From: Prorocentrum cordatum
Taxonomy: Eukaryota; Sar; Dinophyceae; Prorocentrales; Prorocentraceae
Assembly: GCA_963575745.1 (NCBI GenBank)
Contig: CAUYUJ010012669.1
Location: 448,501-512,500, forward strand
DNA length: 64,000 bases
Reading direction: 5' to 3'
Made by a program: the position numbers and the translations under genes. Below, one piece after another: positions 1,119 through 26,015 of this stretch; positions within the stretch are counted from its first letter, which is position 1; every line of letters starts with the position of its first letter. The notes under the pieces are model-generated. The model had not been told where the DNA came from. It worked only from the letters and a program-made list of their open reading frames with translations, and did not search any database.

Positions 1119-1128
1119 TGCCCAAAAG

Positions 1129-9574: not shown

Positions 9575-9597
9575 GGAGCTTGATAGCTCCGCTACCA
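9575..9597 (-). other. Primer binding site and adjoining hairpin of the copia element
   Basis: Directly inside the 5' LTR the sense strand reads TGGTAGCGGAGC (9597-9586), which fits priming by the 3' end of a tRNA (...GCTACCA). It resembles but does not exactly match the initiator-Met site common in copia elements (TGGTATCAGAGC or TGGTAGCAGAGG types). The site overlaps a perfect hairpin, GGAGCT-TGAT-AGCTCC at 9575-9590. Confidence 0.7.
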
Positions 9598-10104
9598 TGC
9601 AATGGTCCCGCTTAGAACCACTGCCCTGATAGCAATCCTGAATGATGCTACTCTCTTCTCTGCTCTGACAACGTGTCGAGGGTACCGTTGGCGGTGTTGA
9701 ACTCGTCGCAAGACGGGTCGAATATGAGGGCAGTGACTGTGCGATGCTGATCGCACTATGGTGATGAACAGGATCTGTTTATCAGCGGGCAGTTCGCTGT
9801 CCTGCGTCTCTCGGACGCACACCAGAAGTCCAGCGTCGCTGAGACGCTGCAAAGGCTTGAGCCAGAACGGTTTCGGATGAACCTGTTCTGGGATATTATA
9901 ATGGGGATCTCGAAGGATCTCGGAGGGCCTACTAAGCAAGGCTGGCTGCAACCTGGAGGCTAAAGGGGGCCCGATTCGCCGGGAAACGCTTGGCTAACAT
10001 ACATGGGGCTCCTTTGGAGCCTGAAGCTTATATCACGCACGGCCTCTAGAGGCCATCTGTCGTAAGTAGGCTCTAGTGAGGCAGGCTCGGGGCTGTGAAT
10101 TGCA
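9598..10104 (-). repeat. 5' LTR of the copia element (507 bp)
   Basis: TG...CA ends; 505 of 507 positions match the LTR at 612-1118. As the 5' LTR it should hold the promoter, but no dinoflagellate promoter motif could be assigned. Confidence 0.95.
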
Positions 10105-10109
10105 GAGGG
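10105..10109. repeat. Target site duplication of the copia element, right copy (GAGGG)
   Basis: Matches 607-611. LINE-A coding resumes in frame at 10105. Confidence 0.95.
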
Positions 10110-10112
10110 TGA

Positions 10113-10133
10113 TCCTGCGGCTTCAGCCCAGGA
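10113..10133. repeat. Palindrome P11 in LINE-A (duplicate of 23907-23927)
   Basis: Outer arms TCCTG/CAGGA, unpaired C at 10118, inner stem GGCT/AGCC, loop TC. It starts three bases after the copia target duplication. Confidence 0.75.
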
Positions 10134-11240
10134 CACCTACACCACCTACCTTGACAACGACACTGGATGGACATGGGTCTATGCTGCCACGGACGGTGCG
10201 TGCACCAACCAAGCCATCCCACTCCTAGCACGAGCGGGCTACGGCGTCTACTACGGCATCGACCACCGCATGAACTACAGTGCACGCGTTCACGGCCTAA
10301 CGCAGAACGCCCAGGTTGCGGAGACCCTTGCCATCGTCCACCTTACGGCGTGTGCCGAACGGCCCGTGCACGTCTTCGTGGACAACCAGGCGGTGGTCGA
10401 TGGGTTCCAAAGCATCATCGACGGACATCCAGCGCCGCAGGGCACGCACGCGGAGCTCTGGGCAATGATTCACCGATGTGTCATGGCCAAGCCCGACATG
10501 TTTCGCGTCGAAAAAGTCGCCAGCCACCTGGGAGACCTGGGCATCGACCTTGGGCTCATCGGGCCCATCGCGGAGGAGTTCAACCGTCAGGCCGACGCCC
10601 TTGCCACAGCGGCGGCACGCACGCACAACCTCCCCGACGACATCGTTGAAGCTGCCATAACCCGACATCGCCAAGCGACCGTGCTTCACGGGGTCGCTGT
10701 CGCCATCTACGAGCGCAGACACCGTACTCTGCCGCTCCCACACCGCAGGGCTGGGTTTACAGCGGCTGAACTCAGCAAAATGGAACCGAACCCCCTGCTG
10801 TCGGACCAGGCACCACCCGCGGCTGGACCAGACATCCCGCAGAACCCGGACGAGCTCTGGGCCGAGGCCCAACGGGCGATGTACGACGAACAGGAGGACG
10901 ACCCGTTCGGCTTCGGCGGGGGACTAGACTTCCTGGACGACGGGCCAGCCAGCGCCAACCTTGCCCCGTCGGGCATCCGCACGACGCCCACCTCGACTCC
11001 GCCACCGAGAGCGGCACCGCACCCACATGATGACGTCGCTCACCTCCAAGACGCCGACGAGGACTTTTATGATCCCCTCGGATTGGGTGGCAGCATAGAC
11101 GACGTCCCGCCGACACCCCACGCTGCCGACGATGCCGCTTCATCGAGTCGCCACCCGGTCACGCGGCCGACCTCTGAGCCCTCGCACGGCATCATGATTG
11201 GTCCCTCCGTGCCACCAACCCCGTCCCCCCACCAGCGCCA

Positions 11241-11274
11241 GCCCGCGGGGGCGGCTTCAGCCCCCCCGCAGGGC
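11241..11274. repeat. Palindrome P12 in LINE-A (duplicate of 25035-25068)
   Basis: Arms GCGGGGG/CCCCCGC, unpaired C at 11252, inner stem GGCT/AGCC, loop TC. A second pairing GCCC/GGGC follows beyond an unpaired A at 11270. Confidence 0.75.
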
Positions 11275-11360
11275 ACTGAGCCAGTCAGGCCGTCGCGCCC
11301 CGTCCACGCTCCTACTGTTGCAGGCTGCGAGGCTGCGGCTCCTCCGTCCTCATGGGGCGT

Positions 11361-11387
11361 GGCCCCAGCGGCTTCAGCCCTGGGACC
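11361..11387. repeat. Palindrome P13 in LINE-A (duplicate of 25155-25181)
   Basis: Arms CCCAG/CTGGG, unpaired C at 11369, inner stem GGCT/AGCC, loop TC, with GG/CC beyond a C-A mismatch. Confidence 0.75.
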
Positions 11388-11775
11388 GCGCGACACCCTC
11401 CAGTCGCCTCGCCACGGCGACGGCCGCCAGCGCACGGACCGCCGCACCGCGCTGGTCCACCACCTGGCCAGGCGCACCGATGACCTCGCCCCCGCCGCGA
11501 GGCCCGCGGCCGCGGGCACAGAGCAGCCGCCCCGCACCGACCGCGAAGCCGAGCTGTCCCAGTCTACGGCCGCTCTCCAGCAGAGGTGCGCAGCTCTCGC
11601 CGCCGACCTTGCCGCTGCCCAAGCCCGTCAAGGCCCTTTGCTCCAGCGCCTCCACCGCGCCGGTCGTGCCTTCGCCGAGCTGCTTACACCCCCGCCCGAT
11701 GGTGCTGCGCCGCCACTCACCCTCCATGCTATGCTGTCATCGCTCCGCGGCGCTCCGCCTGGAGCCCCGCGCTAA

Positions 11776-12141
11776 TCTCCGCCATTCTGCCTGCCCGTGT
11801 GCACGCGTGGCCCCGCGTCCACGGTGTCAGGGCGTGGGGGCGGGGGGTGCCCCGTCCCTGCGCGCCGCGCTGCGGCCAAGCGCCCAACTGGCGGTCTGCC
11901 AAGCCGCCTAGCCACGTGTCCGCACGTCGCCTTTCTTGTTGGGGCCTTCTTCGTCACGCGGTCTGACACGTGAGATCTTCACAGTCTGTCCGCCGTCCGT
12001 AGCTTCAGACGCAATGCGCCGGGGGAGGGGGTCTGTTGCCCGCCCTCGTATCTTAAGGCTGCACCGCCGCTAATAGTGTTTTGCGGGTTGTCGCACCGCA
12101 GTGCGCCTCGCGGACGGACCCTGGTCCGCCTACTTGTCCGG
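11776..12141 (+). other. LINE-A 3' untranslated region
   Basis: About 366 bp after the ORF2 stop, nearly identical to 25570-25934 in copy B. The similarity ends at a (TC)n tract in both copies, which marks the 3' end of the element. Confidence 0.8.
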
Positions 12142-12175
12142 TCTCTCTCTCTCTCTCTCTCTCTCTTTTCTCTCT
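12142..12175 (+). repeat. (TC)n terminal tract of LINE-A
   Basis: Short TC/CT microsatellite at the end of homology with copy B. A terminal simple repeat in place of poly(A) is known for several LINE groups. Confidence 0.8.
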
Positions 12176-12376
12176 AAGGGTCGGGCCACCCAGGACCCAT
12201 ATTGAAGGTGCCTCAGAGAGCCCGCCTCAGCCCTCCGAGGAAGCGCCTTCAGAGGCACCGCTCCCCTCTTCGCGTCGTATCTCTTTCTTGTTACCTCATG
12301 TCTGTTTTGGCAGCAGCACGCGCAAGCTCTCTGGTGTAGGGACACCCGTAGTCTTGCAGGGGGCGTGATTGTAGCG
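12176..12376 (+). other. Probable 5' untranslated region of LINE-B
   Basis: Sequence between the LINE-A tail and the first ATG of LINE-B ORF1. It has a perfect 8-bp inverted repeat, GGTGCCTC at 12207-12214 and GAGGCACC at 12252-12259. No spliced leader is present. The exact 5' end of copy B is not defined. Confidence 0.5.
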
Positions 12377-15300
12377 ATGTACATGAGCATTCAGGGGTGT
12401 ATGAGGACGTGTGCTGCCACGCAGCTTTCGGCTCATCGCTCGCGCCGCCCGCCAGGCCTCGCCATCATGCGGCGCCTCGCCTGCGGCCTGGCCCTCCCCT
12501 CGCTGGCTGGAGCACACCCGTCTTCAGGCGGTGCGCCCCAGCACGGAGGAGAGGCTTTCCTGCGACATGCGGAGCGTAGGACGTACTTCTACCTTTACGA
12601 TGACAGCAGCTACAAATACGATCACAGCGCCATTTTGGACCCGATCGTGAACAGCACCGCCGCCGCTGGTCCGTGCGGCACCGGGCTGCTGGGCGCCCCC
12701 GCGAGCGCCTGGCCTGAGCAGCACCAGGGGCCCTGCCCCACGCGCTGCCCCCCTGGGACTTCGACGGCTACTACTATGCCTACGCCGAGTACCAGCACGT
12801 CTCCTACGAGCACGCCCTCGTCAACTACGACACATGCATCGCAGTCGACCGCCGATTTTGCCGCAGCTGAGCTGACTCCTGCGTCCTCCGGCCACGCCTC
12901 GCACCGCATGCAAGTTCAGCTACGAGGGCTACCATCACTCAATGCGACGCCTGCGGTCGACCGTCGTACAGCATATCCTCGATGGCACCCTGTCTTCAGC
13001 TTGTCCTCGACCGTCGTGCAGCATATCCTCGACAGGACCGCTGGCAAGGCCCAGGCACGCAGTGGCGGCTTCAGCCCCGCTGCAGTGCCCTGGCTGCCAC
13101 CGCCCCCGCATGACGTACACGGCCTCACTACCAGCAACGCAGAGAGTCCCGCTTCCCCTCTGGGCGCCAGGGGTGAACCTGATGAGGATCCCGCCTTCTG
13201 GCACCTGATGAACATCCGAGCACGGCTCATCCCGTGCGCCGCGGCGTGGGCACCAGGTGAGGACCATCAGGACGTTTACTGGGCATGGCTCGAGGACTGC
13301 GTCCCGCACGTCCTGGCGACGCTCCATCTGCCACAGTACGACCACCTTTTCCAGGAGGACTCCGCGGAGAAAAACGACGCCCTGCGTCACCGCACCGCGT
13401 TCGACATGTGCGAGGATATCTGGCACAGAGCGGGCCCCGACAGACAGCGCACCAACCGCAACCTCACTCGTATTCAGGGCAGCCACGAGTACCCCACCCG
13501 CTACCTTGGCCTCCTTCTGGAATACCAGTGCGCGCGTGCCCAGCTCGTCGGCCCTGAAGCTTTCGCGGCACCACTGCCGCCATACCTCTCACGGGCCCAC
13601 GCCTTGCTGCCAAGAGGCCTCCCTCCGCCCGACCAAGACGCCCTGGCGTATCTCGTGGATGTGATCCCGCACCACCCGCCACACCTACAGCCGCTTGTCG
13701 AGGCGGAGCTCGCCGCGGCATCGATGGAACCGCTAAACCTACCACCGCCCGCTGGCCCCCCCGCCCAAAACGCCACGTGTGACCAGCCCGCGGACGACGC
13801 TGATCCGCTTCTGCTCCAGCACACAGCTGCCAGCGATATCAGCAACATATCCCTGGACTCGTTCCACGTGTCGGACGATAGCCAGAACGACTCCATCCAC
13901 GACGCGGAAACCCAGGACCCCGACGGCACGCCACCGCCAAGTGACGCTGCCCAGCGCGACCGTGACAGCGATCCCCACACAGGGCGCTCCCGGTCGCGCA
14001 GCAGTGCGCCCAACAACTCGGCCCAGGCCGACCCCAGCGCACAGCTCAGCGACGCCGAAGGTGCCACCGCCGCCGACGAGCCAGGCCATGCCACCGCACC
14101 GCCAGCTCCCACCAGCCCGCGCAGTGGCGGCTTCAGCCCCGCTGCAGCACTGGCTGGACCTGGGCGTCTTCAGACCTCAGGTGGCAGGACCCCGTCCCGC
14201 ACCCTTGTCCGCCGAGCTAACTCGACTGACTCCAACTCCAGCCCCGTCGACCACTGGCAGGCTGGCCTCGACAACGATCCCATCGAGGACGCGGACCCCG
14301 ACGCCAGCGGTTCCCAAGAGGCCCCGCACAGCGCAGCGGCCTCTCGACGCTGCGGCTGTCTCATCTGCCTCTTCGCGGTCACGTACGCCATCTTGGTAGC
14401 CATGCCGTACCAGGACCAGATCGACGGGTACCTGCCGACACCGAGCCGAGACCCCAGCTACCGGCAGCGACGACGCCGTGAAGCTGCGGCACCAGGCCCA
14501 GCCGTGTCCACTACGCCCCGACGCACAATAGCATACGACGCCGCGACCGCCCTGTGGGGTCTTCTCAGGTGGACCAGCGCCAAACTCAGAGACACTGCCT
14601 CGGGCGGAGCCAGCGCAGTCGGGTCTGGCCTCTGGGGCGCCCTGAAATGGGCCAGCGGCAAACTCGGAGCTATCGCCACAGGCGGAGTGGTTTGCGGCCT
14701 CCTCCTGGTCGGCGCCAAGCTTCTCGCTCAAGGAGCCGTCGGACACGTAGGAGCCCGCATCTGTGCGCGCGTCCTGGACTCACCCACGGCCCAGTGGTGC
14801 CTCCGCTGTTGCCAACCGACCAGGAGCCCGCGCGATGAGGCCCCACACACGCTTCCGCGCACGCATCCCGACGACCCCGAGAGCCAGCACGTGCATCCCC
14901 TCCGACACCCGCTGCTACAGGAGCACTACGCCGCTGTAGTTGCCGCCGCAGTCGCCGATGTCACCACCGCCACCACCGCCGCCATCGCTGAAGTCACTGC
15001 CGCGGTATCGCGAGCCTCGTCTGTCACGCCACGGTCGACCAGCCCGTCCCCGCGAGACGGCCCCACAAGCGGCGCGGCCTCTGGCAACCCGCCGACTCAC
15101 GAAGCCGCCGCAGCTCAGGCCACCGACGCCGAGGCAAGTGAAGCACGTGAGCGCACCCTCGACGGCGACGGCGTGCACGGAGCGCCCGACGACGAAGCGG
15201 ATGCAAGCAACGCCCGTGGTTCCTCTTCCGACATGGACACCCAACCACCACGACGGCGAGCACGCCACGCATCACCCGCCAGGCCCCAGGCGCCTTCAGG

Positions 15301-18300
15301 CCCTGGTACGCCCCACCCAGCCCTCTGGCCACCGACGCGCAACTTACGCAGCACCATCCAGCGCGACCCAGCGGCCCCCGTGCCGCCGACGAGCATCCTC
15401 ACCTCCCTGTACCAGAACGGCTTTGCGCTTGGTAACAGTGGCGTGACCACGGAGGACATCGAAGACGCCCTGCGACTCTACGACCATCCTCGATACACCC
15501 ATGACCCAACGCTCCAAGCGTTGGCGCCGTGGACCGACATCATGCAGAGGCCCCCGAACCGACTCACTTGGGTGCTGGAAGACTCGGGCGGGAACTCAGG
15601 CGAGACGATCTTCCCCTACCTCACGTGGGACCTCCGTGCTCCTACCACTGACACGCCCACGGTCTTCTGGCACGGGACCCGCGGCGACCTTGCGGCCCGT
15701 CTTGCTTTCAACGGAGGTCACCTCCTGCCGGGCCCCCGCCGTGAAGCGAAGGGCCGAACCGCCACAAATGTCGACCGCACGTACGTGGGTGTGCACCCGT
15801 CGCTGGCCGCGTGGTACGCGGTGCCGCCTCACCCGCCCCGCAGCCTCGAAGACGACACCCTCGCCTGGGGACCCATCGCGCTCTGGATGTGCGAGGCTAC
15901 CAAACCGCCGCGCGGTGAGAACTGGCACAACTTCGTGAACGGGGAGGCTCACGGAGCGCGCCTCATCTACCCACGGGTCCTGGGCCTCCTCATCCGCATG
16001 GACTGGTGTGCCCCCACCGAAGCTGCCTCCAGGTGCCGTGCCCTCCCGCACACCTGTGGCATGGGCGACTGCACGCACGCCCTCCACATTGCCGGCTTCG
16101 ATCACCCAGACCTCCGCGAGGCGGCTGAAGCCCGCGACCAGGAGGCAAAGATCTGGCGCCGGCTGGACACCGCGGCAGCGTGGCCACCGCCACAGGCACT
16201 ATACTCGCCAGAGGCAGCGCGAGCATGGGCTACACAGCACTACGACACCGAAGCAGCCACCAGGGCCGACCCAAACCAGCCCCGTCCGCGTGCCTCGCTT
16301 CGCAAGCTCCAGCTGGACCCGCAGCCACTGATCGACCTGGTGTACACTGCCACGGCGCAGGCTGTACCCGAGCGGTGGCAGTCTGACGTACGAGCGCCGC
16401 GCCCCAGCGGCTCCAGCCCTGGGGCCGCGTCTGGCCCATCGCACACCTCTCAGCCAGGTGCCGCCTCGGGACACAGTCCAGACCGCTCACCGACGGCATC
16501 GGGAGCCGACGACCGCCGTGCGCCGTCCCTCATCAGCGCGGCCGCCGCCCTCGCCCGAGGCCATGCTCGCGCACGGCGCTCCGCCTCACGTTCGTCACGG
16601 CAGAGCGGCGGCAACTCCGCCTCTGACAGCAGCGACATCGATACGTGGGAGCACATCGAGACGGAAGAGGAGCCGACCGCCTACCACGTCCTCGCCTTCC
16701 ACGTCCGCGATGTGCGGTCCCGTGTGAACGCCCCTGGCGTCGAGGTCTGGCTCGACCCAGGCGAGCATCACGATGGCGCCTACCTACCGTGGGGGACGAC
16801 CGTTGTGGGCCACCGCGTCACTGACCCTGCGGTTGCGGGTCGCGATGGCTGGGTCATCCTTCACCACGACCACGGCGACACTACCACCAGGCTCTGGGCA
16901 CCGACCCAAGTCCACGTCAAGGCGGACGACACTTGGCGCACGGTCATGATCGCAGCGGACCTGGGGCCCCAGTGGATCCAGCGCCATGCTGACGACGCTC
17001 GCCTCCCCGCGGAGGCGGTCCGCACTACAGGCCAGTCCTGGTTCGCCGACGTCTGGCCTTTGTGGGATCGACCCCGACCCCACCCAGACGACGCAGTCAC
17101 CGACGAGCAAGCGTTCCCGCCCCTACCAGGACGCTGGATTTGCCTACAGTGCCGATTCCAATGCTGCCAGTATTGTGCTGCCCGCCGCAACACGCAGCTC
17201 GGCACCTCGGGCCATCCCACGTGCCCGGACTGCTCCCTCAGCGGACTGCGTGCACCTATGGACTGGTCCACGGACTACTCTTGCAACAGCTGGACGTGCG
17301 TGTACAGCACCGACGACAGGGCCGCCGACACATGCTGCCTCTCCAGCAGATGCCCGCACCCGCCTCGTCCGCACAGCCTGCTCGACGTCCGTGCCACAGG
17401 GATGCCTCCGCACATCCTCGCCCGCCAATACGGCAACGCGCCAGCCCAGCACGACCTCATGGAGCCCCCCCGAGCGCCTTCAGGCCCCGGGGGGGAGCCT
17501 CCGCAACCAGGCCAAGCAGGATACCAGGGCCAATGGTATCTACCACCGAGGCCGCGTCGCGTCCCCAAGCAGGGATTGCCCGACGGCACGAGGCGGCCAC
17601 CAGGGTTCACAGGGACGGGGATGCCTGAAGACCCGTCTCCCGACCAACCGCTGTGGAAGGAAGGCTACGTGCTCTTCGGCCCGCACCAGGCCCTCAAGGA
17701 GGATTTCATCTTCAACAAAGCGGTGCGCCGACCTTACTCCCTAGCCATCACCAACATGTACAGGGATCGTGTCACAGTCAGGACCGTCTGCGAGTCTATC
17801 GCCGAGCGCATCCACACTACCCGCACGCGCTGGCGGGATGTGGTACTGTACTGGGATGCCGAGGGCGGCCCTGGGCCTCAAGCTCTCGACTACGACATGC
17901 GCCTCTGTGACGCCATGGTGAGTCGTGCCACGACCGAAGCCGAGTTGAACCACGACCGCAACAACCGTGGTAGCTTCTGTCTCTATGGACCAGCGCACCA
18001 GCGGGCTGTGAACATCACGGTGCTCCCCGAGCCGCAGAACATTGACTTTGTGGAGCATGTGCGGCGCTACTCACCTGACGGGGAGACTTACCCAGACCAT
18101 GCCTTCGAGCACGTCTACCAGGGCTGGCGGCGGCCCGACGTGCCGCCCATCCTCCCCGACACCCGCCCGCTCTCGAGAGCCGACCAGCAGCGCTACCAGC
18201 AGCACCAGCAGCGCACCCAGCAGCGCGACCAACGCGACGCAGGTCAGCCGAGCACGCCACGCAACCGCTCTCCTGCGCGCGTCCCGACAGGCGACAGAGC

Positions 18301-20077
18301 GGTGCACGGCGGAGGCGCCGCCTACCACCGCGGCCCCATTGGTGCCAGGCCCGCGGCGGCAGGGGCAGCCGCGTCCAGCTACGGCCACGTCCCCCACGCC
18401 AGGGTGCACCCAGCGGTCGTCGGCTACCCGCGCGCACTCGCGCAGGCTCCCCCACGGGCCATCTCGCCCGCGCCAGGGTCCACGCGTGCCTGGGGCCATT
18501 ACCCAGGCCGCCACGACAGCACCGCCAGCAACCAGTCCGCAGCGGCACCCCTTGCGGCTTCAGCCCAGGGGGCTGCATCAAGCCGCGGCAGGACAGGGCG
18601 CCCCGAAGGATGGCGCGAGGCGAACGTGCGCGCCTGGCAACCGCGCCAACACACGCCCCCGCCAAACGTGGCCGCAGCGCAGCGCCCTGCCCAGGCAAAG
18701 CCCGCCCCCCCTGAGCGCGAGCGGCAGCCGCTCGTCCCGCTCGTCCTCACGCACACCCAGGCACACCACAGCGCCTCCCCGCGGCACAGCGAGGGTAGTG
18801 CCCACCGCGTCAGCCCCCGGCCTGACGCCGCCGACCCTGACCAGGCTGCAGCCTCGGCGGCGGGCGGCACAGGCGGCTCCCGCCCGCCCAGCCCAGCACC
18901 CAGCGCAGCGCCGATCCGCTCCCCCAGCAGGGCGGACTCTGCGCGCGCCAACGCCCAGGCGGCCTCGCCACGTGACCGCCACACGGGCGGGCGCGTCCCG
19001 CGCAGCCGGCCCAGCAGCCGCCACAGCTCGCGCAAGCCCCCTGGGAGTTCCACGAGCTCGCCGCCCCGCGAGACTCAGGCTGACGCCCAAGCCCCCGAGG
19101 TGATGCCACGTTTCGGTGCCGGCGCCAAAGACCCTAACGAGGTCGACCTCGAGCCGACGCCGTCCACGGATCAGGAGCTGCCACCGCCCACCCGCGTCGC
19201 CCCCCCCGACGAGGCGCCGACCTTCGACCCCTTCAAGAACAAGTACCGCGTCAAGGACCTCGCGGCGGGCTTCGGCGGCGGCTCACCGCTGTCTCCTCAG
19301 AGCCATGGCGGCGCCCCCGCCACCTCTGCCGCTGCCGCGGCAGCGGCGGCCCCGCGTGGAGTCAGCCCTGTCCGCAACGCGAGCCTCACGGCAGCGGGCA
19401 TGGACGAGGCTCAGCGCCAGGCCACCGACCGCGCCGCTCGCCACGCCCAGCTAGTGGCTGACGCGCTGGCAGGGCGTGCACCGCCGCAGCCACAGGGCCC
19501 ACCGCCCGAGGCGAGCGCGGAGGGCGCACATGAACAAGCTGTTCCAGCTGATGCTGCTCATCACGGCACTGACGGGGCGGGCGCGCCGCCGCAGGACGGA
19601 CCAGCGGTGTCGCGTGCGCAGTATTCGCGCGCGCGCTGCGCCGCTGCCGCGCCACGCTGCCGCCGCTGGTTTGCTTTTGCTCTTGCGCTCGGCAGGATGG
19701 ATCGAGGAGTCGCCTCCCTCTCCCCCTGCTGCCGTCTCACCTTTCCTCCCTCCGCCCCCCACGGTACAGGAGTGAGGAGGTTTTTTCGAGGCAGTTTTAC
19801 CGATGTTTATGAACCCCCCCCGGCGCAGCGTCGACCATGCCTTGCCTGCACTTTTGGCCCGACGGCGGCTTCAGCCCCGTCCAAGCCAATCTGCTGTGAC
19901 GCTATGAGCTCCTACTGTGGCCAAGCCTCCTACCTGGGTGTGGCCAGGCCGCCCTCCGCCGTGCGGGGCGTGCTAACCCCAGCTCCACCGACGGAGATGG
20001 GCCAGGGCGCACCATCCACCTCGTCAGCCTCAACATCACGAGTCTTCCAGCGAACTGGCCAACCATTACCGCCCTAG
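12377..20077 (+). CDS. LINE-B ORF1, giant protein with ART-like and Cys-rich segments
   Basis: The first ATG of the open frame is at 12377 (2567 codons including the TAG at 20075-20077). Visible segments: two hydrophobic stretches (about residues 659-678 and 770-790, possible membrane segments); an ADP-ribosyltransferase-like segment with FWHGTRG (His near residue 1099), NGGHLLPG, then RTYVGVHPSLAAWYA (about 1136-1149); a Cys-rich segment with CLQC, CCQYC and CPDC (about 1590-1690); and long Pro/Ala/Ser/Arg-rich, probably disordered spacers with a Gln-rich run. It contains nine palindromes of the family described below. Its last 178 bp overlap ORF2 in the -1 frame. The frame is intact over 7.7 kb of GC-rich DNA, which supports selection on it, but no full-length homologue is known to me. 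By position it should bind the element RNA, and other roles are unassigned. Confidence 0.72.
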   Translation: MYMSIQGCMRTCAATQLSAHRSRRPPGLAIMRRLACGLALPSLAGAHPSSGGAPQHGGEAFLRHAERRTYFYLYDDSSYKYDHSAILDPIVNSTAAAGPCGTGLLGAPASAWPEQHQGPCPTRCPPGTSTATTMPTPSTSTSPTSTPSSTTTHASQSTADFAAAELTPASSGHASHRMQVQLRGLPSLNATPAVDRRTAYPRWHPVFSLSSTVVQHILDRTAGKAQARSGGFSPAAVPWLPPPPHDVHGLTTSNAESPASPLGARGEPDEDPAFWHLMNIRARLIPCAAAWAPGEDHQDVYWAWLEDCVPHVLATLHLPQYDHLFQEDSAEKNDALRHRTAFDMCEDIWHRAGPDRQRTNRNLTRIQGSHEYPTRYLGLLLEYQCARAQLVGPEAFAAPLPPYLSRAHALLPRGLPPPDQDALAYLVDVIPHHPPHLQPLVEAELAAASMEPLNLPPPAGPPAQNATCDQPADDADPLLLQHTAASDISNISLDSFHVSDDSQNDSIHDAETQDPDGTPPPSDAAQRDRDSDPHTGRSRSRSSAPNNSAQADPSAQLSDAEGATAADEPGHATAPPAPTSPRSGGFSPAAALAGPGRLQTSGGRTPSRTLVRRANSTDSNSSPVDHWQAGLDNDPIEDADPDASGSQEAPHSAAASRRCGCLICLFAVTYAILVAMPYQDQIDGYLPTPSRDPSYRQRRRREAAAPGPAVSTTPRRTIAYDAATALWGLLRWTSAKLRDTASGGASAVGSGLWGALKWASGKLGAIATGGVVCGLLLVGAKLLAQGAVGHVGARICARVLDSPTAQWCLRCCQPTRSPRDEAPHTLPRTHPDDPESQHVHPLRHPLLQEHYAAVVAAAVADVTTATTAAIAEVTAAVSRASSVTPRSTSPSPRDGPTSGAASGNPPTHEAAAAQATDAEASEARERTLDGDGVHGAPDDEADASNARGSSSDMDTQPPRRRARHASPARPQAPSGPGTPHPALWPPTRNLRSTIQRDPAAPVPPTSILTSLYQNGFALGNSGVTTEDIEDALRLYDHPRYTHDPTLQALAPWTDIMQRPPNRLTWVLEDSGGNSGETIFPYLTWDLRAPTTDTPTVFWHGTRGDLAARLAFNGGHLLPGPRREAKGRTATNVDRTYVGVHPSLAAWYAVPPHPPRSLEDDTLAWGPIALWMCEATKPPRGENWHNFVNGEAHGARLIYPRVLGLLIRMDWCAPTEAASRCRALPHTCGMGDCTHALHIAGFDHPDLREAAEARDQEAKIWRRLDTAAAWPPPQALYSPEAARAWATQHYDTEAATRADPNQPRPRASLRKLQLDPQPLIDLVYTATAQAVPERWQSDVRAPRPSGSSPGAASGPSHTSQPGAASGHSPDRSPTASGADDRRAPSLISAAAALARGHARARRSASRSSRQSGGNSASDSSDIDTWEHIETEEEPTAYHVLAFHVRDVRSRVNAPGVEVWLDPGEHHDGAYLPWGTTVVGHRVTDPAVAGRDGWVILHHDHGDTTTRLWAPTQVHVKADDTWRTVMIAADLGPQWIQRHADDARLPAEAVRTTGQSWFADVWPLWDRPRPHPDDAVTDEQAFPPLPGRWICLQCRFQCCQYCAARRNTQLGTSGHPTCPDCSLSGLRAPMDWSTDYSCNSWTCVYSTDDRAADTCCLSSRCPHPPRPHSLLDVRATGMPPHILARQYGNAPAQHDLMEPPRAPSGPGGEPPQPGQAGYQGQWYLPPRPRRVPKQGLPDGTRRPPGFTGTGMPEDPSPDQPLWKEGYVLFGPHQALKEDFIFNKAVRRPYSLAITNMYRDRVTVRTVCESIAERIHTTRTRWRDVVLYWDAEGGPGPQALDYDMRLCDAMVSRATTEAELNHDRNNRGSFCLYGPAHQRAVNITVLPEPQNIDFVEHVRRYSPDGETYPDHAFEHVYQGWRRPDVPPILPDTRPLSRADQQRYQQHQQRTQQRDQRDAGQPSTPRNRSPARVPTGDRAVHGGGAAYHRGPIGARPAAAGAAASSYGHVPHARVHPAVVGYPRALAQAPPRAISPAPGSTRAWGHYPGRHDSTASNQSAAAPLAASAQGAASSRGRTGRPEGWREANVRAWQPRQHTPPPNVAAAQRPAQAKPAPPERERQPLVPLVLTHTQAHHSASPRHSEGSAHRVSPRPDAADPDQAAASAAGGTGGSRPPSPAPSAAPIRSPSRADSARANAQAASPRDRHTGGRVPRSRPSSRHSSRKPPGSSTSSPPRETQADAQAPEVMPRFGAGAKDPNEVDLEPTPSTDQELPPPTRVAPPDEAPTFDPFKNKYRVKDLAAGFGGGSPLSPQSHGGAPATSAAAAAAAAPRGVSPVRNASLTAAGMDEAQRQATDRAARHAQLVADALAGRAPPQPQGPPPEASAEGAHEQAVPADAAHHGTDGAGAPPQDGPAVSRAQYSRARCAAAAPRCRRWFAFALALGRMDRGVASLSPCCRLTFPPSAPHGTGVRRFFRGSFTDVYEPPPAQRRPCLACTFGPTAASAPSKPICCDAMSSYCGQASYLGVARPPSAVRGVLTPAPPTEMGQGAPSTSSASTSRVFQRTGQPLPP
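12515..12533. repeat. Palindrome P1
   Basis: Arms CACC/GGTG, unpaired C at 12519, inner stem GTCT/AGGC (one G-T pair), loop TC. Confidence 0.6.
12957..13034 (+). repeat. Direct repeat of about 25 bp inside LINE-B ORF1
   Basis: CGACCGTCGT-R-CAGCATATCC is found near 12957-12982 and again near 13010-13034, about 53 bp apart, so the spacing is not a multiple of three. The two copies are translated in different frames. Confidence 0.7.
13051..13093. repeat. Palindrome P2
   Basis: Arms GCAGTGG/CCGCTGC (one G-T pair), unpaired C at 13066, inner stem GGCT/AGCC, loop TC. It extends through GGCAC/GTGCC beyond an unpaired A at 13084, then CCA/TGG. Confidence 0.85.
14112..14157. repeat. Palindrome P3
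   Basis: Same core and arms as P2 (GCAGTGG/CCGCTGC, unpaired C at 14128, GGCT/AGCC, loop TC). The outer flanks differ yet still pair (CCAGCC/GGCTGG). It abuts P4. Confidence 0.82.
14158..14182. repeat. Palindrome P4
   Basis: Arms ACCTGGG/CTCAGGT (one G-T pair), unpaired C at 14165, inner stem GTCT/AGAC, loop TC. The inner stem differs from P2 and P3 with both strands changed together. Confidence 0.8.
15286..15306. repeat. Palindrome P5
   Basis: Arms CCAGG/CCTGG, unpaired C at 15291, inner stem GCCT/AGGC, loop TC: a compensatory version of the GGCT/AGCC core. Confidence 0.8.
16398..16429. repeat. Palindrome P6
   Basis: Arms CCCCAG/CTGGGG, unpaired C at 16408, inner stem GGCT/AGCC, loop CC. 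It extends through CGCG/CGCG beyond an unpaired C at 16425. Confidence 0.8.
17461..17502. repeat. Palindrome P7
   Basis: Inner stem GCCT/AGGC, loop TC, unpaired C at 17475, then GAG/CCC with one mismatch and seven C pairing with seven G. GGAG/CTCC pairs beyond a 3-nt bulge. Confidence 0.75.
18545..18576. repeat. Palindrome P8
   Basis: Arms CCCCTTG/CAGGGGG (one G-T pair), unpaired C at 18555, inner stem GGCT/AGCC, loop TC, then GCA/TGC beyond a bulged C. Confidence 0.78.
19854..19889. repeat. Palindrome P9
   Basis: Arms GACGG/CCGTC, unpaired C at 19866, inner stem GGCT/AGCC, loop TC, then TTGGC/GCCAA beyond a small internal loop. It lies just before the ORF1/ORF2 overlap, and the ORF2 frame opens 10 bp after it. 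Confidence 0.82.
19900..20077 (+). promoter_or_regulatory. ORF1/ORF2 overlap requiring a -1 frame change
   Basis: ORF1 (ending 20077) and ORF2 (opening 19900) overlap by 178 bp, with ORF2 one base back in frame. ORF2 has no ATG before 20560. No canonical X-XXY-YYZ slippery heptamer was found in the overlap, so the mechanism is open: frameshift, reinitiation, or non-ATG start. Confidence 0.6.
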
Positions 20078-23000
20078 GTGTCGACCACAACGCCGCAGTC
20101 ATAGCGCTGCAGGAGACCCGTCATGCCAAGCCTACCAGGCAAGCCATCGCCACCAACGCCGCCAATCCACACCACGGAGGATACCAGGCCAGTCTGGGAC
20201 CTGACCTGGACCTGGCGCGTGCCCAGCGCAAAGCTGCTCACGGTGGCACGGACCACACGGTCGAGGGCAACACCGGCGCCTCGGGCGGGGTTGCCATCCT
20301 CTCTAAGGACGCCATCGTCGACTCCACCGTCGACGACATTGCGACCTGTATCGCCACCCTCAAGGCCAAGAAACGATGGCACGAGGTCTTCCTCCCGCTC
20401 TGCACCCAGCACCGCCGCAGGCGGCGACGAAACAACCACGGTCCCGCTGGGATCTACATTGCGAGCCTCTACGGGGTCGCTGGAGGGGACAGCACCGATA
20501 TATTTCGGCTTGCTGATTGCGCCGCCGCGAGGGTCGGCTCAGCCCCGTATTTCATTTGTATGGACGCCAACACGAACATCGACGACAATCCACACTTGCT
20601 GCACATGATGCAGCACGGATGGTCCAACGTCGCTGAAGGCACACCAGACCACACCATGCACACATATGGCAATATCCCTGACTGGGACCGCGTCACCAAG
20701 TGCCCCCGCACTTCGCGCATCGACTATGTCATCGCCAACCAAGCTGCGCGATCCCTTGTCACCGACTTCTGCTATCTGCGTGACTTGCCAGCGAAGTCCC
20801 ATGTTGGCCTGCAGGTCACACTCGACCTAAGCCGCCTCGATCACACGGCCCCACGCCTTTTGGCCCCCACGCCATACCCTCCAAACGACGGAGCTCATGA
20901 GGACCACGAACTCCAGGCACTAGGGACCCACATCGCCGGACGATACCACGACCGCATGGAGCAGGCTGACGCACGCGACGATGTGGAACGCATGTTCGCC
21001 CTGGCAAACGAGGCCAGCCATGAGTACCATCTCACCCGGCTGCGGGACCTGCCGCCCCCACCGCCAGACCACCCAAAAAAGAAGGCCCCTACCATGCACG
21101 GGCTCACACCCACGTTCGAGGAGCGACCCGCCGTCCCCCGCGCCTTTCCCACCTACGGAGCTTCCACGATTCACATGAACCGCCTTCGCAAGCTCCATCG
21201 GCAACTTTGCGAGCTTCGCTTCATCGGACTGCACCATCATATAGACTGCCGTGCTATCCCGCCGCACCTGGCGCAACGCATCGACTGCACGTGGGCCGCG
21301 GCCCGCCTTCTCTGCCACAAGCCGCGCCCCACGGCCCTCCTGGCCTTTCCTGACGCCTGGACCCCCGACGTGCCAACGCCACGCGGAGAGCAGCTCGATC
21401 GTCTGATCCAAAATCTAGACTCGGAGCTGGCGCGACGTGCAAACCGAGCCAAAGCCGAACGCATCAAGATCTGGTCTGAGGGCGTCCGCGAGCCAAGCGG
21501 GCGCAAGGCGGCCATATACGCACGGGCTGCCGACTGCTCGCCCACGGCGTACCTCCGCACGCCTACCACTCCCGACGATGCACAGCTCCACTGCGACATC
21601 ACCGCCTTCCACCCTGACCAAGCTAGCACGGACGACAGTGATGCCGACACCGACGCCGGCGGCTTCAGCCCCGGCGACGGTAGCTCGCCCGACACGGACA
21701 ACGACGATGGCCCCATTCGTGGCCCACTACCAGCCCAGGTTCCCGACGCCCTCCCCGCCAACGCTATCGTTGCCAACACCAAAGACATGCTCAAGCTCAT
21801 GGTCGACACCTGGGAGCCCATCCTGGCCACGTACCGCGCTCGCGCGGGCCATGACGCCGAAGCTATGCCGACGTGGGCGGACTTCTACGACGAATACCGC
21901 CAAGAGCTGCCTACGCCATCACCAGCAGCCCCCTTCCACCTTACCGACGACCAACTCATCCACTTCATTCGCACCCGTTCACCGCGCCGCGCGGGGGGAC
22001 TCGACGGCTGGACGACCAAGGAGGCAAAGGAGTTACCCGACGACATCCTTCGCCTCTTCGCCAGCGTCTTACGTGCTATGCAACGCACTGGCACCATCCC
22101 CGAGCCCCTCCTGCACGTGCCAAACCCGTGCCTCCGAAAAGGCCGAGGGGAACTCCCGACGGACCAACGGCTTCTCTCGGTTCTTTCCGTGTGGATGTAT
22201 GCGTGGGAGGCGCCGGCCTACCGTAGCCTCACGACCTGGCGGCAAGGATGGACCCATGCCACGAGCTTCGGCGCCGTTCCCAAAGCCACCATTGGGGATG
22301 TCAGCACTTCTCTCGCCCTGCGCATCGAACACGCCAGGACTTTACTCCTCCCCTTAGCTGGAGCAGCCCTTGACCGACAGAAGTGCTTCGACTACCTCAT
22401 CACGGACATCTGTCTAAACCTTGCGCTGCACGCGGGGTGCCCACAAGACATCGTTACTGTCCGCCGAAACTTCTACAGACACCACAAACGCTACATCCGC
22501 ATGAACGGAGCGTACTCCAGGGACCTGGCCAGGACAAACGGTCACCTCCAGGGCAGCTCGTGGTCCCTGGATGACATCAAGCTGCTCATGTGCGTGTGGA
22601 CAAAGAGGCAGCACCGATACGTTCCTCGATCACTCAGCACTACCTTCGTTGACGACAGCAACTCCACTACCCACACCGCTCCTGAGCTGCAGAAATCTCT
22701 CGACGAAACCGCCAAGTTTGACCGATTCTCCGGTCAACGCATTCACCCTGGTAAAGTGGCAGGGTGGGCGCTCACCGATGAGCTGCACGCCGCCGTCACC
22801 CAGCTCACACTGGCGGATCGCCCCCTCCGAGTGGTCGATTCCTTCAAGCTCGTCGGGAGTTACATCAACGCCGAGGCAGCGCCGGCTCCAGCCGCGCTTA
22901 ACCTCACGGCCACCGCAGACGCCCGTGTGCGGAGGGCGACTATCCGCCTGCCGCGCATTGGCAAGCTCCCGTCGCCGATGCTTATCAAGGCGCGGCACGC

Positions 23001-25569
23001 CCGATCCCTGGCCGCCAGCGTCTGCACCACGGGCACCGACATCCAAGCACCATCAGGCCCAGCCAAGACTGCCTACAACCACGCCCTCAAGGCGGCTATA
23101 CGCCCCAAGGGGAACAAGTGGGTCGAGTTCTGGACTCTCATGGCCGTGTGCGTGCCGGGACACGCCCTTGAGATCGACGCCATCACGCAGCGTGAAGCAT
23201 TCCTGTGCCTGCGGCGTCAGGTTAACCGCGACGTCACACTCTGCGGGCTCGCCAGAGACCTCCAACACCACGTCCAGACCCTGTTTGGCGGAGGACCCGT
23301 CGGGCGACTCGTCCAGTCGCTCCAGCAGCTCCGATGGACCTGGCCCACATTCGGCATCATGTACGATGACTGGGGCTGCCCGATCAGCTGGCTGAATCTA
23401 CCCCAAAACGCCTTCCTGCACATGCTGCGGGCCTCACAACGCAGGGCATTTCTGCGCAAGATCAAGCCACGGCGACACGACCTTGGCTACCTCGCCTCGG
23501 TCAGACAGGGCCTTGACCTCTTCGCCAGCACGTGGCTCGCCCGAACCAAAGGAGCAGCCAAATGCACTGCCTGGCAGCTGGCGCTCCTCCTAAACTACCT
23601 GTCGGGCGGGGACCACACCCAACAGCGACGATCCCGATCCAACGCGTCGGCAGACTTCAGCCCCATGTGCCGCTACTGCGACGAGGAAGAGGAAACTCAG
23701 GAGCACACTGTCCGCGACTGTAAGTGCTGGGCCCGAGAAAGAGTTCCTCTCACCACCCTCATCAGTGACGACCAGTGGGCCCGTCTTCCGCCGCACACAA
23801 GACACTGCGGGCTCTTCGACGAAGACCCAGCCCTCCTCGACCTGCAGGCCGACCTCGCGAGGGACCCGCTGCCACAGCCCATCCCGCGGCCCCCCCCTGA
23901 GGGTGATCCTGCGGCTTCAGCCCAGGACACCTACACCACCTACCTTGACAACGACACTGGATGGACATGGGTCTATGCTGCCACGGACGGTGCGTGCACC
24001 AACCAAGCCATCCCACTCCTAGCACGAGCGGGCTACGGCGTCTACTACGGCATCGACCACCGCATGAACTACAGTGCACGCGTTCACGGCCTAACGCAGA
24101 ACGCCCAGGTTGCGGAGACCCTTGCCATCGTCCACCTGACGGCGTGTGCCGAACGGCCCGTGCACGTCTTCGTGGACAACCAGGCGGTGGTCGATGGGTT
24201 TCAAAGCATCATCGACGGACATCCAGCGCCGCAGGGCACGCACGCGGAGCTCTGGGCAAGGATTCACAGATGTGTCATGGCCAAGCCCGACATGTTTCGC
24301 GTCGAAAAAGTCGCCAGCCACCTGGGAGACCTGGGCATCGACCGTGGGCTCATCGGGCCCATCGCGGAGGAGTTCAACCGTCAGGCCGACGCCCTTGCCA
24401 CAGCGGCGGCACGCACGCACAACCTCTCCGACGACATCGTTGAAGCTGCCAAAACACGACATCGCCAAGCGACCGTGCTCCACGGGGTCGCTGTCGCCAT
24501 CTACGAGCGCAGACACCGTACTCTGCCGCTCCCACACCGCAGGGCTGGGTTTACAGCGGCTGAACTCAGCAAAATGGAACCAAACCCCCTGCTGTCGGAC
24601 CAGGCACCACCTGCGGCTGGACCAGACATCCCGCAGAACCCTGACGAGCTCTGGGCCGAGGCACAACGGGCGATGTACGACGAACAGGAGGACGACCCGT
24701 TCGGCTTCGGCGGGGGACTAGACTTCCTGGACGACGGGCCAGCCAGCGCCAACCCTGCCCCGTCGGGCATCCGCACGACGCCCACCTCGACTCCGCCACC
24801 GAGAGCGGCACCGCACCCACACGATGACGTCGCTCACCTCCAAGACGCCGACGAGGACTTTCATGACCCCCTCGGATTGGGTGACAGCATAGACGACGTC
24901 CCGCCGACACCCCACGCTGCCGACGATGCCGCTCCATCGAGTCGCCACCCGGTCACGCGGCCGACCTCTGAGCCCTCGCACGGCATCATGATTGGCCCCT
25001 CCGTGCCACCAGCCCCGTCCCCCCACCAGCGCCAGCCCGCGGGGGCGGCTTCAGCCCCCCCGCAGGGCACTGAGCCAGTCAGACCGTCGCGCCCCGTCCA
25101 CGCTCCTACTGTTGCAGGCTGCGAGGCTGCGGCTCCTCCGTCCTCATGGGGCGTGGCCCCAGCGGCTTCAGCCCTGGGACCGCGCGACACCCTCCAGTCG
25201 CCTCGCCACGGCGACGGCCGCCAGCGCACGGACCGCCGCACTGCGCTGGTCCACCACCTGGCCAGGCGCACCGATGACCTCGTCCCCGCCGCGAGGCCTG
25301 CGGCCGCGGGCACAGAGCAGCCGCCCCGCACCGACCGCGAAGCCGAGCTGTCCCAGTCTATGGCCGCTCTCCAGCAGAGGTGCGCAGCTCTCGCCGCCGA
25401 CCTTGCCGCTGCCCAAGCCCGTCAAGGCCCTTTGCTCCAGCGCCTCCACCGCGCCGGTCGTGCCTTCGCCGAGCTGCTTACACCCCCGCCCGATGGTGCT
25501 GCGCCGCCACTCACCCTCCATGCTATGCTGTCATCGCTCCGCGGCGCTCCGCCTGGAGCCCCGCGCTAA
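19900..25569 (+). CDS. LINE-B ORF2: endonuclease, reverse transcriptase, zinc knuckle, RNase H
   Basis: The frame is open from the stop at 19897-19899 to the TAA at 25567-25569. Its first ATG (20560) is inside the endonuclease, so translation probably depends on a -1 shift from ORF1 or on a non-ATG start. APE endonuclease: SLNITSL, ALQETR (catalytic Glu), GGVAILS, CMDANTN (about 20556-20576), RIDYVIAN and KSHVGL in place of SDH. RT: AALDRQKCFDYL (motif A, about 22363-22400), NGHLQGSSWS (motif B) and TTFVDDSN (motif C, about 22648-22659). Then a C-X2-C-X8-H-X4-C knuckle (about 23665-23720), RNase H with all four acidic residues (about 23966-24420) and a Pro-rich, helical tail. The endonuclease nicks chromosomal DNA and RT copies the element RNA at the nick. 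All domains appear intact. Confidence 0.92.
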   Translation, partial: RYELLLWPSLLPGCGQAALRRAGRANPSSTDGDGPGRTIHLVSLNITSLPANWPTITALGVDHNAAVIALQETRHAKPTRQAIATNAANPHHGGYQASLGPDLDLARAQRKAAHGGTDHTVEGNTGASGGVAILSKDAIVDSTVDDIATCIATLKAKKRWHEVFLPLCTQHRRRRRRNNHGPAGIYIASLYGVAGGDSTDIFRLADCAAARVGSAPYFICMDANTNIDDNPHLLHMMQHGWSNVAEGTPDHTMHTYGNIPDWDRVTKCPRTSRIDYVIANQAARSLVTDFCYLRDLPAKSHVGLQVTLDLSRLDHTAPRLLAPTPYPPNDGAHEDHELQALGTHIAGRYHDRMEQADARDDVERMFALANEASHEYHLTRLRDLPPPPPDHPKKKAPTMHGLTPTFEERPAVPRAFPTYGASTIHMNRLRKLHRQLCELRFIGLHHHIDCRAIPPHLAQRIDCTWAAARLLCHKPRPTALLAFPDAWTPDVPTPRGEQLDRLIQNLDSELARRANRAKAERIKIWSEGVREPSGRKAAIYARAADCSPTAYLRTPTTPDDAQLHCDITAFHPDQASTDDSDADTDAGGFSPGDGSSPDTDNDDGPIRGPLPAQVPDALPANAIVANTKDMLKLMVDTWEPILATYRARAGHDAEAMPTWADFYDEYRQELPTPSPAAPFHLTDDQLIHFIRTRSPRRAGGLDGWTTKEAKELPDDILRLFASVLRAMQRTGTIPEPLLHVPNPCLRKGRGELPTDQRLLSVLSVWMYAWEAPAYRSLTTWRQGWTHATSFGAVPKATIGDVSTSLALRIEHARTLLLPLAGAALDRQKCFDYLITDICLNLALHAGCPQDIVTVRRNFYRHHKRYIRMNGAYSRDLARTNGHLQGSSWSLDDIKLLMCVWTKRQHRYVPRSLSTTFVDDSNSTTHTAPELQKSLDETAKFDRFSGQRIHPGKVAGWALTDELHAAVTQLTLADRPLRVVDSFKLVGSYINAEAAPAPAALNLTATADARVRRATIRLPRIGKLPSPMLIKARHARSLAASVCTTGTDIQAPSGPAKTAYNHALKAAIRPKGNKWVEFWTLMAVCVPGHALEIDAITQREAFLCLRRQVNRDVTLCGLARDLQHHVQTLFGGGPVGRLVQSLQQLRWTWPTFGIMYDDWGCPISWLNLPQNAFLHMLRASQRRAFLRKIKPRRHDLGYLASVRQGLDLFASTWLARTKGAAKCTAWQLALLLNYLSGGDHTQQRRSRSNASADFSPMCRYCDEEEETQEHTVRDCKCWARERVPLTTLISDDQWARLPPHTRHCGLFDEDPALLDLQADLARDPLPQPIPRPPPEGDPAASAQDTYTTYLDNDTGWTWVYAATDGACTNQAIPLLARAGYGVYYGIDHRMNYSARVHGLTQNAQVAETLAIVHLTACAERPVHVFVDNQAVVDGFQSIIDGHPAPQGTHAELWARIHRCVMAKPDMFRVEKVASHLGDLGIDRGLIGPIAEEFNRQADALATAAARTHNLSDDIVEAAKTRHRQATVLHGVAVAIYERRHRTLPLPHRRAGFTAAELSKMEPNPLLSDQAPPAAGPDIPQNPDELWAEAQRAMYDEQEDDPFGFGGGLDFLDDGPASANPAPSGIRTTPTSTPPPRAAPHPHDDVAHLQDADEDFHDPLGLGDSIDDVPPTPHAADDAAPSSRHPVTRPTSEPSHGIMIGPSVPPAPSPHQRQPAGAASAPPQGTEPVRPSRPVHAPTVAGCEAAAPPSSWGVAPAASALGPRDTLQSPRHGDGRQRTDRRTALVHHLARRTDDLVPAARPAAAGTEQPPRTDREAELSQSMAALQQRCAALAADLAAAQARQGPLLQRLHRAGRAFAELLTPPPDGAAPPLTLHAMLSSLRGAPPGAPR
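21649..21681. repeat. Palindrome P10
   Basis: Arms CGCCGG/CCGGCG, unpaired C at 21660, inner stem GGCT/AGCC, loop TC, then ACCG/CGGT beyond an A-A mismatch. It lies between the endonuclease and RT domains of ORF2. Confidence 0.85.
23907..23927. repeat. Palindrome P11 in LINE-B
   Basis: Arms TCCTG/CAGGA, unpaired C at 23912, inner stem GGCT/AGCC, loop TC. It falls between the zinc knuckle and RNase H. Confidence 0.75.
25035..25068. repeat. Palindrome P12 in LINE-B
   Basis: Arms GCGGGGG/CCCCCGC, unpaired C, inner stem GGCT/AGCC, loop TC, outer GCCC/GGGC beyond an unpaired A at 25064. Confidence 0.8.
25155..25181. repeat. Palindrome P13 in LINE-B
   Basis: Arms CCCAG/CTGGG, unpaired C at 25163, inner stem GGCT/AGCC, loop TC, with GG/CC beyond a mismatch. 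Confidence 0.75.
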
Positions 25570-25934
25570 TCTCCGCCATTCTGCCTGCCCGTGTGCACGC
25601 GTGGCCCCGCGTCCACGGTGTCAGGGCGTGGGGGCGGGGGGTGCCCCGTCCCTGCGCGCCGCGCTGCGGCCAAGCGCCCAACTGGCGGTCTGCCAAGCCG
25701 CCTAGCCACGTGTCCGCACGTCGCCTTTCTTGTTGGGGCCTTCTTCGTCACGCGGTCTGACACGTGAGATCTTCACAGTCTGTCCGCCGTCCGTAGCTTC
25801 AGACGCAATGCGCCGGGGGAGGGGGTCTCTGCCCGCCCTCGTATCCTAAGGCTGCACCGCCGCCAATAGTGTTTTGCGGGTTGTCGCACCGCAGTGCGCC
25901 TCGCGGACGGACCCTGGTCCGCCTACTTGTCCGG
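25570..25934 (+). other. LINE-B 3' untranslated region
   Basis: Almost identical to 11776-12141. It ends at the (TC)n tract. Confidence 0.8.
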
Positions 25935-25956
25935 TCTCTCTCTCTCTCTCTCTCTA

Positions 25957-26015
<59 letters not shown>

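Follow-up and report, generated by a model that had tools for sequence, protein, structure and literature searches.

Hairpins maintained by selection along a dinoflagellate LINE and present in its companion element: a candidate multi-copy RNA tag

Introduction

Rickettsia palindromic elements are palindromes that lie within coding sequence in several frames, and the iron-responsive element is a hairpin with a variable lower stem, a 5' unpaired C, and a fixed upper stem and loop (5 bp and CAGUGN, respectively). The present report concerns a family of short hairpins in a 64,000-nucleotide stretch of the genome of Prorocentrum cordatum (contig CAUYUJ010012669.1, positions 448,501 to 512,500; hereafter ‘the window’), where they are scattered through a long interspersed nuclear element (LINE) termed LINE-B. 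A sequence-only reading of the window had listed 13 palindromes of one fold, and had suggested that they might be mobile micro-palindromes, RNA packaging or structure signals, or binding sites for the element's own proteins. The explanation that we favor, with confidence falling a little short of even, is that the hairpins constitute a multi-copy, cis-acting RNA tag, common to LINE-B and to a companion element without reverse transcriptase (RT), and read by an element-encoded RNA-binding protein.

In single-stranded RNA viruses of the MS2 type, a shared loop motif and a 5' bulge in variable, dispersed stem-loops direct assembly (PMC6281560). The L1 protein ORF1p, which combines a coiled coil with an RRM, binds RNA and has been proposed to package the RNA of the LINE that encodes it (PMC5940361), and in the LINE/SINE (short interspersed nuclear element) systems that depend on recognition of a 3' stem-loop, a partner without RT shares the 3' end of its LINE (PMC5135761). 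How a LINE prefers its own RNA in cis among thousands of host mRNAs, and how non-autonomous elements cheat this preference, is an open question. The hairpins described here are not mentioned in the open-access literature that was searched, which included passages of PMC10666404, PMC11453091, PMC10449503 and PMC6281560 and did not extend to subscription papers.

A common fold at 14 sites in LINE-B

All 13 of the listed palindromes were recovered by a pattern scan and by a listing of core matches. The inventory itself proved incomplete: a further site at 22878-22898 had been missed, as had three sites (10113, 11245 and 11364) in a second, truncated copy of the element upstream. Some of the starts given earlier also included a further paired arm (13051, for example, for the 25-nt hairpin at 13059-13083). 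The sites are as follows, with outer arms, unpaired base, inner arms and loop separated by spaces.

12515..12533, + strand: hairpin, CACC C GTCT TC AGGC GGTG
13059..13083, + strand: hairpin (core label 13067), GCAGTGG C GGCT TC AGCC CCGCTGC
14121..14145, + strand: hairpin (core label 14129), 25 nt identical to the 13059 site, with flanks at background similarity (13/40)
14158..14182, + strand: hairpin (core label 14166), ACCTGGG C GTCT TC AGAC CTCAGGT
15286..15306, + strand: hairpin (core label 15292), CCAGG C GCCT TC AGGC CCTGG
16401..16425, + strand: hairpin with loop CC (core label 16409), GCCCCAG C GGCT CC AGCC CTGGGGC
17468..17492, + strand: hairpin with interrupted outer stem (core label 17476), around C GCCT TC AGGC
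18548..18572, + strand: hairpin, CCCCTTG C GGCT TC AGCC CAGGGGG
19861..19881, + strand: hairpin (core label 19867), GACGG C GGCT TC AGCC CCGTC
21654..21676, + strand: hairpin (core label 21661), CGCCGG C GGCT TC AGCC CCGGCG; most other copies have GCTGG/CCAGC (compensatory)
22878..22898, + strand: hairpin with loop CC (core label 22884), absent from the earlier list, AGCGC C GGCT CC AGCC GCGCT
23907..23927, + strand: hairpin (core label 23913), TCCTG C GGCT TC AGCC CAGGA
25039..25063, + strand: hairpin (core label 25047), GCGGGGG C GGCT TC AGCC CCCCCGC
25158..25178, + strand: hairpin (core label 25164), CCCAG C GGCT TC AGCC CTGGG
10113..10133, + strand: counterpart of hairpin 23907 in the upstream copy
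11245..11269, + strand: counterpart of hairpin 25039 in the upstream copy
11364..11384, + strand: counterpart of hairpin 25158 in the upstream copy

The fold consists of a variable outer stem, an unpaired C on the 5' side, three pairs (GNC/GN'C) and a tetraloop, UYCA. The sequence-only description of its details was largely accurate: the bulged C is present at 13/13 listed sites, with a TC loop in 12 and a CC loop in one, and the outer stem forms 4-7 uninterrupted pairs in 12/13, the exception being the site listed at 17461 (one pair, a mismatch and 8 further pairs). An alignment of 19 distinct sites, gapless across seven outer positions, C (A in one), G N C T Y C A G N' C and seven outer positions, comprised the window sites (one of the two identical hairpins, 14129, being omitted) and six rows from elsewhere: three from the companion, two from the 5' open reading frame ORF0, and the version of 21661 on a second contig, C2. 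The N-N' pair is G-C, C-G, U-G or U-A, and many pair types occur at the outer positions. Pairing was seen in 93.3% of cells, as opposed to 63.7% when the 3' letters were shuffled, and the covariation score was 0.70 as opposed to 0.15; these between-site values lean towards the fold, because most of the sites had been picked by their pairing. The compensatory change claimed earlier is strong between sites, with that reservation, and is limited between copies of the element, where 13059/13083 and 21657/21673 are outer pairs with both partners substituted and there is otherwise little variation to test.

Minimum-energy RNA structures contained the bulged C, the three pairs and a UUCA or UCCA loop in 13/13 stretches folded (22884 was not among them), and the folding energy was better than that of shuffled sequences in 12/13 (z -1.9 to -3.3; site 14166 gave z 0.11). 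A further helix beyond a short interruption, also claimed earlier, adds at least 4 pairs at 10/14 sites (mean 4.2, against 2.7 for re-paired flanks; 0/2000 as high), but the unpaired 3' A said to precede it gives the best extension only at 13067, 14129 (2 pairs only) and 25047. A scan of the window against Rfam gave no match at the gathering score, and exact hairpin patterns gave 0 matches in viral contigs and in bacterial and archaeal genomes. In comparison with the iron-responsive element, the LINE-B hairpins have a UYCA loop on 3 pairs, lie in coding sequence and are present many times per RNA; identity with that element was rejected on the loop, the 3-bp upper stem and the Rfam result.

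Chance, codon phase and strand

One reading of such structures is that they arise by chance, or are driven by codon usage, in GC-rich coding sequence, and the GC content is indeed high (63-73% in 2-kb steps from 12 to 26 kb of the window). Synonymous-codon shuffling, the control proposed with the original list, leads to rejection of this reading: the fold with loop TC and bulged C occurs 11 times in LINE-B, against a mean of 0.22 (maximum 2) in 300 shuffles and 2 occurrences on the antisense strand. The hairpins fall in codon phases 0, 1 and 2, as had been noted, and one hairpin of the companion lies about 100 nt past the stop codon of a 986-aa open reading frame (ORF). We regard the likelihood of a chance or codon-driven origin as practically nil. 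The earlier argument that protein selection does not explain the sites also holds, because all three phases occur and because synonymous positions within the hairpins are constrained (see below). When architectures were compared on the sense strand, with any loop and an outer stem of at least 5 pairs, a one-nt 5' bulge was found 13 times, no bulge twice, a 3' bulge once, a 1x1 internal loop three times and a two-nt 5' bulge not at all.

A covariance model built from the 19 sites gave 17 hits in the window at E<=5, all on the + strand and all within the two LINE-B copies; each is either a member of the model or identical to one over 25 nt, so that the search demonstrates absence elsewhere in the window rather than new sites. 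An unbiased test of pairing was obtained by counting every match to the 11-nt core, regardless of its neighbors, in the window and in eight other contig stretches. On the sense strand, 142/160 matches had at least 4 outer pairs, and 16 of the other 18 were interrupted forms of sites 17476 and 19867; on the antisense strand, 0/5 had more than two. All core matches with an outer stem (142/142) were therefore in the sense orientation. The window contains 12 instances of the pattern GGCTTCAGCC (11 of them on the + strand), where 0.27 would be expected. Genome-wide, GCGGCTTCAGCC was counted 12,746 times and its reversed pattern, a crude control, 3,546 times.

The orientation bears on the idea that the sites act as DNA, be it as cruciforms, as replication or recombination sites of tandem arrays, or as endonuclease targets. 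LINE-B units do occur in head-to-tail tandem arrays in several stretches, and a 9.5 kb insert lies 1 nt from a hairpin of the window. The sequence of the outer arms varies with pairing kept, however, and units join at a (TC)n tail and a 5' start, away from the hairpins; a DNA role is further disfavored by the single orientation and by the excess of G.U over A.C (17 to 4, with site 14166 omitted and one outer pair taken for 17476). This reading appears very improbable.

Selection on the hairpins across LINE-B copies

Conservation was assessed in an alignment of 10 copies, nine of which are 84-96% identical to the copy in the window. The alignment omits the truncated copy on C2, the copy on C159 (partly N), L037 and the upstream copy in the window; C93 stops near 23687, leaving nine rows for the last three sites. 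The mask that defined hairpin positions omitted site 14166 and took 10 nt on each side for site 17476. Nucleotide divergence was 3.5% in hairpins and 12.1% in the rest of the ORFs, rising to 15-19% over the 20 bases next to the hairpins. Synonymous differences, counted at degenerate codons, amounted to 1.5% within hairpins and 20.7% elsewhere, a value as low as the former being reached in 0/4452 circular slides of the mask; the hairpin nucleotides are therefore under purifying selection. The two hairpins of ORF0 behave likewise in seven copies (1/90 against 390/5044 cells). The suggestion of an RNA signal or structure consequently stands in the form of a structure selected at the level of RNA, on the strength of sense orientation, synonymous constraint and occurrence in the companion.

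When the protein encoded by ORF2 of LINE-B is aligned with that of a related LINE (P0001, 39-45% identical), sites 21661 and 25047 fall in gaps, 22884 at the edge of a gap, and 23913 and 25164 in dissimilar stretches, and no peptides corresponding to the hairpins are encoded by P0001, whose C-terminal end aligns poorly. The hairpins are thus a layer specific to this lineage and located at points where the protein can accommodate them.

The same alignment could be taken to favor mobile micro-palindromes that resemble Rickettsia palindromic elements, insert into LINE-B and are conserved only through their youth, given that gaps contain or adjoin three of the five ORF2 sites and that the remaining two fall where the proteins are dissimilar. 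Identical outer arms are shared within two pairs of sites (7/7 outer pairs; mean 0.08 in column shuffles, 0.0018 of which reach 2), with a marginal excess of likeness at 6/7 or better (4 against 1.28; 0.05), and the flanks of look-alike pairs are identical at 13-19/40 positions, against a mean of 12.5. A complete fold also occurs in one unrelated stretch (L031, described below). On the other hand, the sites are orthologous in copies that are 84-96% identical and far more conserved than their flanks, they share a single orientation, and across 14 sites in 10 copies no clean absence of the kind expected from insertion was found. As a description of the present state, the mobile palindrome proposed earlier does not hold, and as an explanation it seems improbable; the identical outer arms and the L031 fold nevertheless leave room for hairpins copied as modules, or for a mobile origin. 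Unlike Rickettsia palindromic elements, the LINE-B hairpins are found mainly in one element family, in one orientation, at orthologous and constrained sites of about 25 nt.

The look-alike arms are those of 13067 and 14129, of 16409 and 25164, and also of 25047 and the companion site 13526 (C2-oriented), all identical or nearly so; with their dissimilar flanks, they hint at the copying of hairpin-sized modules. In one copy (C21a, L013), a 16-nt deletion removes the 5' half of the hairpin equivalent to 15292.

Regular spacing

Spacing was evaluated after merging neighbors less than 400 nt apart, with random positions treated alike in 20,000 draws. For C2 and C102b, both full-length and intact, intervals are 1.03-1.36 kb, with a single one of 1.79 kb, and the coefficient of variation (CV) is 0.17 against 0.62 for random positions (0.00005 and 0.0003 of draws being as regular). 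Values for other units were 0.25 in the window (0.006), 0.27 in C88 (0.004) and 0.27 in C37 (0.002); in C21, where several cores are broken, the CV was 0.44 and the regularity was not significant (0.10), and the C67 unit, in which the 5' motif was not found, was left out. Because these units share descent, their spacing is evidence of one design rather than six.

An RT-less companion carries the same hairpins

A 7.1 kb segment lies between two LINE-B units on C2. It has no tblastn match to ORF0, ORF1 or ORF2 of LINE-B at E<=1e-3, and no Pfam family was found in three of its ORFs (one of which is cut by the end of the locus). Its ends are those of LINE-B: the same TAGTCTCGGCTCGAGAGT start, and LINE-B's 3' untranslated region (UTR). 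Between the companion's body and LINE-B outside C2, all 20 blastn matches listed are 29-41 nt long and lie at the GCGGGGG hairpin. A probe from its middle identified at least 40 copies, each on a different contig and 98-100% identical, when 40 of 258 candidates were scored, and a LINE-B 5' end follows both further copies that were recovered. With many copies, no RT and the ends of LINE-B, the companion has the features of a non-autonomous LINE partner, and its shared ends suggest that it may be mobilized in trans by the LINE-B machinery.

The companion copy on C2 contains six folds, two of them with a bulged A. In three copies, 18/18 core matches are sense; 14/18 have an outer stem of at least 6 pairs and the other four a mismatch early in the stem, and the core of one additional site has been lost. 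With 6-7 cores in about 7 kb of companion, and with 14 sites in the window copy of LINE-B and as many as 15 exact cores in a full unit of 16.2 kb, both elements carry roughly one hairpin per kb.

Matches elsewhere in the genome, and a host reader

Of eight isolated core matches examined in the genome, three were LINE-B and five unrelated (L029-L033). Outer pairs numbered 0-2 in four of the latter, two of which (L029 and L032) lie in one shared context. The fifth, L031, has the full fold with seven outer pairs (2 G.U), for which the chance probability at a random junction is 0.0007. Within LINE-B, two sites count against selection on the nucleotides. At site 14166 conservation is lower than in the flanks, with the fold present in 2/10 copies (the window and C93) and also in L037; 7/8 of the fold-less copies differ by same-length substitutions, and in C88 the 3' arm is incomplete. 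Site 21661 shows mild conservation (divergence of 11.6%, with 15.9% in its flanks), its changes being partly compensatory. In view of L031, the fold is concentrated in LINE-B, though not demonstrably confined to it.

The L031 match (position 565; C48:617862; L040 4365) reads AGGCTAG C GGCT TC AGCC CTGGTCT, within an unrelated 258-aa open frame. No Pfam family was found in that frame, which by eye resembles part of another RT, and in the surrounding 8 kb (L040) the core does not recur and neither blastn nor tblastn gave a match to LINE-B.

The main rival to an element-encoded reader is a host RNA-binding protein that recognizes the hairpins, whether to export the 16 kb intronless RNA from the nucleus, to stabilize or translate it, or to let it escape silencing. 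The evidence for selection at the RNA level is the same for both, evenly repeated sites would also suit coating by a host factor, and the single complete fold in an unrelated, coding-like stretch (L031/L040) is in keeping with such a protein. Against it, the outer stem is missing from 4/5 unrelated genomic matches, a small sample. A host reader is, in our judgment, unlikely.

A proposed tag read by the element's own protein

Under the favored explanation, in which the reader is encoded by the element, the hairpins would form in LINE-B genomic or messenger RNA, RNA being the presumed acting form. Selection keeps about one of them per kb along the whole of LINE-B, and their density is similar in the RT-less companion that has the same ends. 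The tag would be bound by an element-encoded RNA-binding protein (the candidate being the ORF0 product, on the basis of a predicted model) that builds the retrotransposition ribonucleoprotein (RNP), and would allow the machinery to distinguish its own RNA and that of the companion from host mRNA. A more specific proposal, which we advance tentatively and consider less likely than not to be correct in full, is that the evenly spaced hairpins (about 1.1 kb apart) act as an RNA ‘address’ that nucleates an ordered, capsid- or filament-like RNP of the modeled ORF0 protein, on which the RT-less parasite rides along.

The analogy to dispersed viral packaging signals is one of manner of working, and membership in that class is not claimed. 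Both systems have many short, dispersed stem-loops with variable stems and a common motif; the LINE-B loops UUCA and UCCA fit the xxYA motif, and the 5' bulge is present, as in the MS2-type description (PMC6281560). They differ in that LINE-B is a retrotransposon, its bulge is C (A at some companion sites), its inner stem has 3 pairs and its spacing is about 1.1 kb; moreover, no coat protein is known for LINE-B, and its reader is a candidate. With respect to L1 ORF1p, the candidate ORF0 protein is predicted to have RRM-like domains ahead of a long helix of low confidence, without a Pfam match. To our knowledge, no repeated hairpin tag has been described in L1. In contrast to LINE/SINE recognition at the 3' end, the putative signal of LINE-B and its companion is also spread through both bodies, at about one per kb.

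The LINE-B RNA therefore offers a discrete, countable motif that is selected, occurs about 15 times, is common to the RT-less partner and is absent from the related LINE P0001 (by peptide comparison), so that its recognition can be tested with one 25-nt hairpin and silent mutants. The findings suggest that multi-copy dispersed RNA signals of the viral type may exist in non-LTR (long terminal repeat) retrotransposons; if the reading as an RNA address is true, a packaging-signal system of the type known from RNA viruses would operate in such an element.

The LINE-B element and its surroundings

The element in which the hairpins reside has the following features in the window.

12190..26000, + strand: LINE-B copy, delimited by blastn against eight contig stretches, with ORFs, 3' UTR and (TC)n tail
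12206..20077, + strand: ORF1, 2623 aa from stop to stop, without a Pfam family
19900..25569, + strand: ORF2, 1889 aa, apurinic/apyrimidinic endonuclease (APE)-type endonuclease, RT and RNase H
25579..25998, + strand: LINE-B 3' UTR, 89% identical in the RT-less companion element (426 nt; blastn)
10105..12175, + strand: 3' portion of a second LINE-B copy, upstream of the main copy and head-to-tail with it, 98% identical to 23899-25969

Pfam identified Exo_endo_phos (E 2.9e-6) and RNase H (E 4.8e-7) in ORF2, with RVT_1 alone reaching just E 0.12. The RT assignment follows P0001 (45% identical over 93% of the query), and there is a weak match (22% identity, E 1.8e-8) to P0002, which carries PF00078; among PDB sequences the sole match was RNase H1 (E 0.08-0.09). 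With endonuclease and RT in one ORF, LINE-B has the sequence features of an APE-type non-LTR retrotransposon. At least 71 scored matches to a 620-aa query from the RT region were obtained in the 4.128 Gb assembly, among 10,315 candidates, and a 1200-aa piece of ORF1 had no homologous protein among 7987 scored.

The window copy is without about 2.7 kb of 5' sequence, containing ORF0 and two hairpins, that is present in other units fetched (for example L014). ORF0 has no Pfam match (the best was DUF5930, at E 0.17), and no Foldseek match at E<=0.001 was found for either of its two predicted models, in which the RRM-like domains are weak. A fragment of ORF0 (P0005, 99% identical) has been deposited as a protein of a Myxococcales metagenome-assembled genome, where it is probably a dinoflagellate contaminant.

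The upstream LINE-B copy is split by the 9.5 kb insert (window 614-10104), which contains a minus-strand ORF of 2116 aa (1129-7479) and is bounded by a 7-nt duplication, GAGGGTG (607-613 and 10105-10111), 1 nt away from hairpin 10113 on its 5' side. Head-to-tail arrays of LINE-B units and the RT-less companion occur elsewhere in the assembly (L009-L028, L038 and L039), with junctions between a (TC)n tail and a TAGTCTCGGCTCGAGAGT start, a pattern that would be expected if new copies inserted into the tails of old ones.
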